Source: Pragia fontium DSM 5563 = ATCC 49100 (GTDB lineage Bacteria > Pseudomonadota > Gammaproteobacteria > Enterobacterales > Enterobacteriaceae). From it: a stretch of 64,000 bases of DNA. Positions 1-63,163 of the stretch are shown here, in pieces; positions within the stretch are counted from its first letter, which is position 1; each line of letters begins with the position of its first letter. Under the pieces are notes generated by a model. It did not search any database, had not been told where the DNA came from, and worked only from the letters and a program-made list of their open reading frames with translations. The position numbers and the translations under genes are program-made. The stretch spans positions 216,078 to 280,077 of the forward strand of contig NZ_FOLW01000003.1 in assembly GCF_900112475.1 (NCBI RefSeq), given 5' to 3'.

Positions 1-387
1 TTTGTTAGCAGAACTCAATCGTTGGGAGAGACGGGTGTTGGGGTCGTAGTAGCTTTAGCTACCGGAGCGCCCCTAACCCGGCTAGGCCCAACGCTCTCTA
101 TAGCTGAATACAGATGGTCTTCCGGCTGAGCACAATAGCCATATTCGCTCACTATTTTTACAGCCGACATTGTCACTTTTGCTGATTTAAAAAGTTTTGT
201 TAGCAGAACTCAATCGTTGGGAAAGACGGGTGTTGGGGTCGTAGTAGCTTTAGCTACCGGAGCGCCCCTAATCCGGCTAGGCACAACGCTCTTCATAGCT
301 GAATACAGATGGTCTTCCGGCTGAGCACAATAACCATATTCGCTCACTGTTTTTACAGCCGGAACATTCACGTTTGCTGATTTAAGA
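1..387. repeat. Tandem repeat, two 195-bp units
   Basis: Two head-to-tail copies (1-195 and 196-387) align without any length change and differ at scattered single bases. The left edge of the window cuts the array, so more units may lie outside. Each unit holds a 34-bp core (40-73 and 235-268) that can fold into a stem-loop and recurs at 12892-12925. On the minus strand each copy has a short open frame (15-170 and 210-401) ending at the same TGA. Most differences between the two copies would change the amino acid, so I see no sign of selection on a protein. A tandem array of a non-coding element is more likely than duplicated small genes. Confidence 0.85.
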
Positions 388-403
388 AGGTTTATCATCA
401 AGC

Positions 404-11794: not shown

Positions 11795-11960
11795 GCTTAT
11801 TCTCAGGGCGGGGTGAAAGTCCCCACCGGCGGTAAATCATCAGGTGTAACAGCCAAGTGAAAGCCCGCGAGCGCTTAACTTAGCCAACGCTAGGTTCAAG
11901 GTCAGCAGATCCGGTGTAATTCCGGGGCCGACGGTTATAGTCCGGATGGGAGAGAGTAAC
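11795..11960 (+). ncRNA. FMN riboswitch (RFN element) of ribB
   Basis: This segment follows the conserved RFN element almost base for base as known from the E. coli ribB leader. It starts with the CAGGGCGGGGTGAAAGTCCC block, has CACCGGCGGTAAATC, GCCCGCGAGCGC, GATCCGGTGTAATTCCGGGG and GCCGACGGT, and closes with GGATGGGAGAGAGTAAC. FMN binding folds the aptamer and lowers ribB expression. The following ~110 bp, with a CAGGCG-TTTA-CGCCTG hairpin at 11998-12013 and the GCCCTGATTCTGGTAA stretch, form the expression platform that in E. coli controls termination and ribosome access. The 5' part is also seen as the small RNA SroG in E. coli. Confidence 0.97.
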
Positions 11961-12071
11961 GATAACGGGTCGGGCATTCGCTCGCCTTACGTTATTCAGG
12001 CGTTTACGCCTGCTTCCAAAAGCTGCCCTGATTCTGGTAATCCATTTAAAAAATAAAGAGGTTATTTTACC

Positions 12072-12728: not shown

Positions 12729-12743
12729 TAGTTGGGAATAAAA

Positions 12744-12988
12744 AGAAGCCGCTAATGCGGCTTCCGATAAAGTCATTTAATTTGACTGCAGTGAATATTT
12801 CGTCCGTAAACAGAACGTAGGAATATTTACATTGTTTCACGGACGAGAGGGATGTTTTTGAGTTCTGTGGGCGTCAGGCCTACGATTCTTAGGGGCGCTT
12901 CGGCAGCTAAAGCTGCTACGACCCCAACAGAATCCTCTCCTTCCGTTTACGTTTTATCAGCAATCAGAGAAGCCGCTAATGCGGCTTC
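12744..12988. repeat. Duplicated terminator hairpin flanking a 203-bp insert
   Basis: The 21-bp sequence AGAAGCCGC-TAAT-GCGGCTTC, itself a perfect hairpin, occurs as a direct repeat at 12744-12764 and 12968-12988. The left copy keeps only the A-run and the right copy only the T-run of what looks like one bidirectional ribB/zupT terminator. The insert between them carries a 34-bp hairpin core (12892-12925) homologous to the tandem repeat at the window start, and an inverted pair CGTCCGTAAAC / GTTTCACGGACG. This fits a mobile element that duplicated its target. Two separately evolved terminators are the alternative. The right copy should stop ribB transcripts and the left copy zupT transcripts. 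Confidence 0.7.
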
Positions 12989-13003
12989 TTTTTTATCGGT
13001 TAA

Positions 13004-13771
13004 CTAGCCCACTGTCCAAATCTGCAATAGCATCAAGCTGAGTCCCATCACCGACATACCGCAAAGAATACCGTAGCTAGGGTTATTATGTGGATCAATC
13101 TCTTTGGCTAATGGCATAAGCTCGTCAACGGATAAGGCAACCATAATTCCTGCAACGGCGGACATAATTGAGGCCATTATTACTGGGGAAACGTTCGGAC
13201 CCAGCAGTAGGAAAGCAAACAGGCCTCCGGCAATTTCTGCCATTCCGGATAAACCAGCCCACAACAGAGCAGCACGTTTGGAACCGGTGGCTGCATACAC
13301 AGGACCAGCAACCGCTAATCCTTCTGGAATATTATGTATGGCTACGGCAAGGGCGATACCCAGACCGAGTTCCCAGTTGGTACTGGCGGTAACAAAAGTA
13401 GCAATGCCCTCAGGGAAGTTATGTAGGCTGATACCCAGCGTCAACAAAATAGCCGTTCGCTTCAGGTTTCTTGGTGCTTTCTGTCCTGGCATCAGATCGT
13501 GGGCATGCTGATGTGGCAGCAGACGATCCAGCAGAAAATAGCCCAGCAGCCCGGCAATAAACATGCTGTAGCCCAGTACTGGGGACATTCCCGGCGTATT
13601 CAGCGAGGCGGGAAGCATTTCCATCAGGGATATCAGCAGCATAATTCCGGCAGCGAAGCCGAGGGCGAAGGCCAGAACGCGATTGGAGGGCTTTTGGCCA
13701 ATGATGCCCAAGAATGCGCCGATAAATGTCGAGCCGCCAGCAAGTATAGTAAGAATAAGTGGAACCGACAT
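13004..13771 (-). CDS. zupT: Zinc transporter ZupT (ZIP family)
   Basis: A 255-aa inner-membrane ZIP-family importer with about eight hydrophobic segments. E. coli ZupT takes up Zn(II) and also Fe(II), Mn(II) and Co(II). The metal-site helices are clear: [10 protein letters not shown] near residue 118 and [11 protein letters not shown] near residue 145. [13 protein letters not shown] and the closing [19 protein letters not shown] match E. coli ZupT, which is also close to this length. A perfect 17-bp Fur-like palindrome lies 21 bp upstream of the start. Confidence 0.96.
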
Positions 13772-35534: not shown

Positions 35535-35658
35535 CGTCATTCCGGTGATATTTACAATTGATCGGTGCCGTCATCCCTGCGAAAGCGGGGACCTCGTTCT
35601 TAAGCCAAGCGTTGTCGTTAAGCGAAAACATTAGATTCCGGTTTTCACCGGAATGACG
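35535..35658. repeat. GTCAT-family repeat element, complete copy
   Basis: This 124-bp element has perfect 11-bp inverted ends: CGTCATTCCGG (35535-35545) and CCGGAATGACG (35648-35658). Its interior segment 35568-35623 is identical over 56 bp to 63102-63157. It contains no open frame and behaves like a non-autonomous dispersed repeat. It lies after pgtP. Confidence 0.8.
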
Positions 35659-35759
35659 AAGGGGGGAATGCGATCATATTCTGACTGAGTCACTAATAAG
35701 TGGAACAAATCGCTCACAAAATACCTACTTTAATCCTTTGAATCTCCAAATAAAAAATT

Positions 35760-35877
35760 TGTGGGGATCCTTCAGACAGAGCGAAAGCTAGGATCTCTCC
35801 CTTAAGCAAACATTCACATAGTGAATGTTTGCTTCTCCTACGGCTACGCGTTCCAGCGTTTGCTGGGATGACGGGAA
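35760..35877. repeat. GTCAT-family repeat element, inverted variant
   Basis: Read on the minus strand, this begins CGTCATCCCAGC and then GCTGGAACGCGTAGCCGTAG, the same order as at 62900-62935. An internal perfect inverted repeat, AGCAAACATTCAC with GTGAATGTTTGCT (35804-35833), forms a strong hairpin. The tail to about 35940 resembles the sequence at 54715-54755. Confidence 0.7.
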
Positions 35878-35963
35878 TAAAGACGGGATGGTGAAATTTA
35901 TCAGTCATTGTATACAGAATAAAAATACTTAAATGAATGCCCGCTTATTCTAAGACTATTATT

Positions 35964-62713: not shown

Positions 62714-62880
62714 GGTAGGTTATTTTGTTTGTAGTGGATTGATTTGGGCGTAAATTTCGGCCGTCAAAGATTCAGCGTATGGCTCAGCATGGACGTAACG
62801 GCCGAGCAGGGGAGCATTAGGGCGGATGCTTGAAGGCTCCCCAGAAAAATAAACTTGAATTCTTAACTATGGTTTATATT
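62714..62880. other. Structured intergenic DNA after recJ
   Basis: Two inverted pairs are visible: CGGCCGT / ACGGCCG (about 62758-62804) and GGGGAGC / GCTCCCC (62809-62842). They may fold as consecutive hairpins at the end of the recJ transcript. No T-run follows on the plus strand, and I see no gene here. Confidence 0.4.
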
Positions 62881-62899
62881 GTCATTCCCGCATTTATAC

Positions 62900-63054
62900 C
62901 GTCATCCCGGTGAAAGCTGGAACGCGTAGCCGTAGGCGAAGCAAACATTCACATAGTGAATGGCCCGAAGGGTGAGCGAAGCGAATCATCTCGCCCTTAA
63001 GCCGAGTGCGGACATTAAGCTAAAACCTGGATTCCGGTTTTCACCGGAATGACG
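62900..63054. repeat. GTCAT-family repeat element, complete copy
   Basis: The ends are CGTCATCCCGGTGAAA and TTTTCACCGGAATGACG, inverted copies with one mismatch over 15-16 bp. Inside is GAAGCAAACATTCAC, shared with the inverted copy near 35810. A 20-bp lead, GTCATTCCCGCATTTATACC, precedes it and is repeated almost exactly at 63083-63102. Confidence 0.8.
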
Positions 63055-63082
63055 GAGGGGGAAAGCTTGATTAGACCTATGT

Positions 63083-63157
63083 TGTCATTCCTGCATTTAT
63101 ACCGTCATCCCTGCGAAAGCGGGGACCTCGTTCTTAAGCCAAGCGTTGTCGTTAAGC
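63083..63157. repeat. GTCAT-family repeat, truncated copy
   Basis: This copy repeats the lead GTCATTCCTGCATTTATACC and then holds the 56-bp segment (63102-63157) identical to 35568-35623. It lacks the right inverted end and stops a few bases before the stop codon of the flavin reductase-MarR gene. Confidence 0.8.
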
Positions 63158-63163
63158 TAAAAC

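Follow-up and report, generated by a model that had tools for sequence, protein, structure and literature searches.

A terminator-borne family of YPAL-like miniature elements in Pragia fontium and other enterobacterial genera carries a putative structured RNA and has IS1182-type ends

Between ribB and a zupT-like gene of Pragia fontium DSM 5563 a 34-base hairpin is found, with two reverse-oriented relatives at the left edge of the analysed stretch of 64,000 nucleotides (the window). This raises the question of what the hairpin belongs to, whether its fold is selected and how it was distributed. The sequences of the core at 12892-12925 and of the relatives at 40-73 and 235-268 are as given in the original prediction. 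By direct reading, each relative matches the copy at 12892 in 31 of 34 bases (noted earlier as about 30). The double change GCAGC/GCTGC versus GTAGC/GCTAC is present as well, and it is one of many both-sided changes across the full family. The outer GGGG/CCCC arm had been called constant, which is true only of these three copies; of the 24 own-genome cores, half have T-A or no pairing at its outermost position. The earlier description understated the observation. The drawn hairpin forms just the end of a rod with four helices, and the strand under selection is the reverse complement.

The existence of a dispersed element family, proposed from three copies, was borne out far beyond chance. With window positions 12780-12960 as query, 36 BLASTN matches were obtained in the genome. 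A structure-aware search, suggested together with the hairpin, was run with a covariance model built from 24 own-genome copies (R1). It gave 46 own-genome matches at E < 0.01 and further matches in other genera; the family comprises about 45 copies in P. fontium. R1 matches occurred in 27 of 295 genomes, belonging to 17 of the 154 sampled genera of the same bacterial family. Named holders are Serratia proteamaculans, S. quinivorans, S. inhibens, S. plymuthica and Yersinia artesiana. Genome contigs were also scanned with a DNA pattern, which was too loose and returned mostly chance matches but pointed to holders in Serratia and Yersinia. The elements gave no match in an Rfam scan, either at the gathering cut-off or at permissive E-values. 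A known Rfam RNA family was rejected as identity of the core, since no score exceeded the gathering cut-off. The features of the window are compiled in Table 1. The tandem array at its left edge (window 1-390 and G000:C13:215700-216080) contains at least three 195-bp units and is flanked by related hairpins; part of it is a run of N, which the third core, at G000:C13:215706, adjoins.

Table 1 Coordinates of the element between ribB and the zupT-like gene and of the left-edge copies (window positions)
Feature	Position	Strand	Remarks
ribB	end 12728		neighbour of the window element
Left terminator hairpin copy GAAGCCGCTAATGCGGCTTC	12745-12764	none	preceded by A tract 12740-12744; same stem-loop single in relative G003
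Inserted miniature element, 204 bp	12765-12968	none	between the two hairpin copies, between ribB and the zupT-like gene
Accessory hairpin A, CGTCCGTAAA...TTTCACGGACG	12801-12845	none	sequence varies among copies, arms stay complementary by eye
Conserved four-helix rod P1-P4	12872-12945	minus (functional strand)	contains the reported hairpin
34-base core	12892-12925	minus	P3 (GGGG/CCCC), conserved internal loop TCGTA / CGGAG(CG), P4, apical loop
Right terminal repeat TTTATCAGCAATCAGA	12953-12968	none	degenerate form of the IS1182-type end
Right terminator hairpin copy (GAAGCCGCTAATGCGGCTTC)	12969-12988	plus	followed by T tract 12989-12994
zupT-like gene	13004-13771	minus	neighbour of the window element
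Two 195-bp tandem element units	1-390	plus	array runs on left of the window
Core copy at the left edge (earlier 40-73)	11-103	plus (functional strand)	covariance-model match G000:C13:216088-216180
Core copy in the second 195-bp tandem unit (earlier 235-268)	206-298	plus (functional strand)	covariance-model match G000:C13:216283-216375

The 24 own-genome cores align almost gap-free. Their top-scoring covarying column pairs are nested Watson-Crick pairs, which outline a rod of the helices P1 (7 bp), P2 (6), P3 (5) and P4 (5), set apart by conserved internal loops. In this set 87% of the cells are paired and 16 of 23 pairs are changed on both sides, with 92 both-sided-change cells compared to 26.5 in shuffles. 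For 43 diverse cores from many genera, read on the opposite strand, 94.7% of the cells are paired and 17 of 23 pairs are changed on both sides; most of the 43 are from other genera, but the tests are not fully independent, as own-genome copies had served to derive the structure and 11 sequences are common to both sets. The controls for the 43 cores reached 77.3% (shuffles) and 40-48% (slid partners). Unpaired substitutions are thus not as common as paired ones, and selection for a folded structure, as originally proposed, is supported. A tree-aware null, in which each column's number of changes was replayed on the tree, was applied as well: among about 4465 column pairs, just two reach E < 0.05, both inside the structure. 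Restricted to the 23 proposed pairs, 14 pass (a figure derived by scaling from the all-pairs run).

At least two forms of the apical module exist (TCGTA/CGGAG, TCGAC/CGAAG), and the internal loop of the window copy has CGAAG where the family has CGGAG(CG). Long extra helices are inserted next to P3/P4 in L008, L292, L297, L110 and L111, with a z of -7.7 for L008. Among the copies, stems have been replaced as entire blocks and apical modules have been exchanged, as might be expected if the compensatory changes arose without selection, either by template switching perfecting quasi-palindromes (one arm copied from the other) or by gene conversion between copies. Such an origin appears very improbable to us, because the internal loops are asymmetric and stay conserved while the stems vary. 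Moreover, the strand-biased mismatches and the presence of GNRA and CUUG loops on one strand only, described below, are not predicted by arm copying. The core was kept folded through many paired mutations and hence probably works as RNA; the hairpin would be the tip of a putative structured RNA of about 75-95 nt with four stacked helices and conserved internal loops.

For 103 distinct cores, 17 G-U and 113 A-C cells were counted on the drawn strand and therefore 113 G-U and 17 A-C on the complement, counts that include changes inherited by whole subfamilies and are not independent events. As strand control served the FMN riboswitch upstream of ribB, whose strand is known; in the same group of genomes it gave 47 G-U and 5 A-C. 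An ordinary copy of this riboswitch is located upstream of ribB at window 11795-11961. Among 85 short-loop cores, the apical loops of the complement comprise 40 GNRA, 9 CUUG and another 30 TTTA, compared to no GNRA on the drawn strand. Of 91 cores, 83 fold more stably as RNA when read on the complement, for which the RNAalifold energy is -33.5 versus -15.3 for the drawn strand. From the G-U/A-C bias, the loop types, the RNA stability and the RNAalifold energies, the functional strand is the minus strand at 12872-12945 and the plus strand at the left-edge copies. A strand-symmetric cruciform and arm copying were rejected on this same asymmetry. Of the original proposal of an RNA or cruciform structure, the single-strand fold is favoured; the cruciform is less likely, since the two strands are not equivalent.

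The carrier of the core is, as judged from its sequence, a non-autonomous YPAL-like miniature element inside Rho-independent terminators. Its terminal repeat has the consensus CAGACTGCTGACAAAG and matches that of IS1182-family insertion sequences. The layout is A tract and hairpin, element, hairpin and T tract, and the hairpin with both tracts constitutes an intrinsic terminator. Duplicated flanks were found in 34 of the 45 elements with both ends recognisable; swapped flank pairs reached such a score in 0.25% of cases. Hairpins account for 30 of these 34 duplications, compared to 2.8% of shuffled ones. The duplications have a median length of 22, a terminator hairpin having about 18-29 bp. 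Two length classes of elements exist, measured as 127-147 bp and 214-289 bp in the survey of element ends, with about 132-134 bp and 213-245 bp as typical sizes. Compact elements of 132-134 bp (Serratia, G016, G022) contain little beyond ends and rod and lack accessory hairpin A; the elements of P. fontium and of relative G003 add a second hairpin. The ribB-zupT interval of G003 contains just one terminator, built on the same GCCGCTAATGCGGC stem-loop. Some decayed element-like sequence follows it, so that G003 provides an empty site for the hairpin and not necessarily a pristine interval. Other relatives have a single, different terminator in this interval. Some copies (L012, L025-L029, contig ends) follow the apparent 5S end of rRNA operons, at the rrn terminator.

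Four copies that are nearly identical (L047, L055, L056 and L057) occur at four sites, where three different hairpins served as targets. The neighbourhoods of L055 and L056 resemble each other and may derive from a segmental duplication; this does not apply to L047 and L057, which is suggestive of recent movement. Elements with the same ends but a different interior are also dispersed, and hence the core is not needed for movement. Two further short elements with IS1182-type ends at terminators, L280 (G176) and L286 (G119), resemble an enterobacterial REP sequence inside (GTAGGCCGGGTAAGGCG...). Thus, different cargos share the same ends.

Of 198 genomes of the family, 24 contain the 15-mer CAGACTGCTGACAAA, with 69 occurrences in total; the reversed control did not occur. 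Many matches begin short elements at terminators. In L279, L281 and L299 they begin a transposase gene, whose product belongs to the IS1182 family of transposases (NF033551, 498 bits against a cut-off of 270). The same end of 15-16 bp is found in IS1182-family sequences of G194, G095 and G203, on the Salmonella plasmid CP054717.1 and, with two mismatches, in ISEfa7 of Enterococcus; the ends of ISCfr1 are unlike the terminal repeat. These insertion sequences share with our elements the insertion at terminator hairpins and the duplication of the hairpin: the complete one in L302 has an exact 24-bp hairpin, AAACCTGCTTTTTCAAGCAGGTTT, on either side. They differ by a length of about 1.6 kb and a transposase gene, which our elements lack. 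In G203, a multi-copy IS1182 and near-identical core elements occur together, both flush in terminator hairpins. On the Salmonella plasmid (L358, CP054717.1, 14135-16750) the IS1182 lies between two different hairpins with no duplication; these unlike flanks suggest recombination between copies or loss of one side. IS1202, known for long duplications, was considered as partner and dropped, as the literature gave no link and the direct terminus search led to IS1182 instead.

Ends, target and duplication together indicate that the elements are most likely mobilised in trans by an IS1182-family transposase. No IS1182 gene or transposase was found in the genome of P. fontium or in G003, G016, G166, G178, G185 and G193, several of which are rich in the element. 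The mover is consequently absent from these genomes, lost, or located on a replicon outside the sequences searched.

DNA hairpins, too, tolerate G-T pairs and loops of the GNNA type. As single-stranded DNA could show similar preferences, action of the fold as RNA is inferred. The core might act instead as a strand-specific DNA hairpin, recognised by a transposase or host factor in replication or transposition, with no role as RNA; we regard this as unlikely. The strand preference and the GNNA loops would fit, and so would the lack of a sense/antisense bias relative to genes (see below). Furthermore, a Y1/HUH transposase family is present in this genome and the minus-strand tip often has GTAG before the hairpin, like REPs. 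However, the IS1182-type ends and the length of the duplications are indicative of a DDE transposase that works on duplex ends, same-ended elements with another interior are dispersed too, and no Y1 transposase was found in G003 and G016, both of which hold copies.

The elements were compared with known repeats. Earlier reports describe YPAL, or RU-2, as Yersinia palindromic sequences of 167-168 bp with intergenic location and a stable predicted fold (PMC2229807, PMC2759123, PMC2267715). There YPAL is a dyad-targeting, MITE-like repeat whose target duplications measure 3-26 bp and either span dyads or adjoin them, and an influence on upstream transcript stability was suggested (PMC2229807, citing De Gregorio 2006). 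The printed RU-2 begins with ttCAGACTGCTGACAAAc and ends with ctttgtcaataacctca, which is the same terminal repeat; the first 15 bases are the same. The YPAL-type termini CAGACTGCTGACAAA.../...TTTGTCA are present in our elements, with up to 3-4 mismatches in many copies. Variable-length target duplication at dyads or terminators is another common trait (here 34 of 45, 30 hairpins). In contrast, interior and fold differ: our elements carry a GGGAGAG...GGGGTCGTA...CGGAGCGCCCC rod, and in most cases the duplication is the whole terminator hairpin. Identity with YPAL itself was rejected, since a unit of about 167 bp with the YPAL interior was not found. By sequence comparison the elements form a sister group of YPAL.

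IS1272/TnSha1 of staphylococci, also of the IS1182 family, target hairpins and terminators with no primary sequence preference (PMC4923244, PMC5678879). IS1272 removes the stem-loop and leaves no duplication, whereas our elements duplicate it. ERIC, or RU-1 (PMC2229807), is likewise an enterobacterial MITE-like intergenic repeat with a strong fold. It has TA termini, which were not found here; our elements end with TGAG/CAGACTG... and their duplications are mostly hairpins of 18-29 bp, so an assignment to ERIC was rejected.

The REP/BIME and GTAG families (PMC3733652) are also small palindromic intergenic repeats, and in some of our copies GTAG stands by the hairpin. That the family is an ordinary REP element, a GTAG-tagged palindrome mobilised by a RAYT, is in our judgement the least credible explanation, although GTAG adjoins the apical hairpin on the minus strand in many copies and Y1_Tnp fragments occur in the genome. 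REPs are units of 20-40 bp without such terminal repeats, whereas the unit here has 132-245 bp, terminal repeats and a duplicated target; the enzyme is probably different. Many copies have GACTTGGC in place of GTAG. All own-genome Y1_Tnp matches lie at contig ends, as for a multi-copy IS200-like element and not a single RAYT gene. Assignment to a REP/RAYT system was rejected on the larger unit with its own ends and on the lack of GTAG in many copies. The Y1_Tnp (IS200-like) fragments number thirteen, L374-L380 among them, and probably represent a multi-copy IS breaking the assembly.

Among 66 copies with a gene on either side, as counted from open reading frames without curation, 40 are flanked by convergent genes, 24 by co-directional genes (functional strand sense in 12 and antisense in 12) and 2 by divergent genes. 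The equal numbers of sense and antisense copies argue against a fold that serves only the upstream gene and are unexpected for a host-beneficial 3'UTR signal. We propose that an IS1182-family transposase would recognise the hairpin of an intrinsic terminator and that insertion would duplicate the whole hairpin. Each flanking gene would retain a terminator on the far side of the element, and the element would become part of the 3' untranslated region. For each gene the duplicated hairpin has its T tract only on the far side; hence, the transcript should read into the element. It would pass the first hairpin, take in the element and end at the second. At convergent pairs, both strands of the element would be transcribed. 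The fold may act as RNA in cis, on transcript stability or by protein binding, and a cis-acting 3'UTR structure is the most likely predicted role of the core.

As explanation of the whole, YPAL-type MITEs mobilised by IS1182 and carrying a structured RNA are favoured with good confidence. With somewhat more reserve, we consider it rather probable that IS1182 transposases and their miniature derivatives, YPAL included, represent one enterobacterial system hiding in terminators with duplication of the hairpin. Through this system, at least 17 genera would have received a structured RNA not described before, whose apical modules are exchangeable and which also exists in long expanded forms.

In the accessible parts of the literature searched, the targeting of terminators and palindromes by the IS1182 family (IS1272, with loss of the stem-loop) and YPAL as a MITE-like repeat are already known. 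No link between YPAL and IS1182 was found there, including the repeat papers naming YPAL. As far as this literature goes, the shared ends and the duplication habit tying YPAL-type elements to IS1182 are new, and so is the strand-specific covarying fold carried by one branch of these elements. A candidate mover of YPAL-type elements is thereby proposed, where the literature searched gave none, and the pairing with IS1182 is testable. A hairpin copied to both sides leaves termination of both flanking genes possible, which is a tidy route to harmless mobile DNA. Furthermore, a covariation-supported structured element outside Rfam is added, present in dozens of 3' ends per genome and in several genera.

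A second dispersed repeat (CCGTCATCCCTGCGAAAGCGGGGACCTCG...), unrelated to the element, was observed in direct and inverted copies at window 35568-35890 and 62875-63163.
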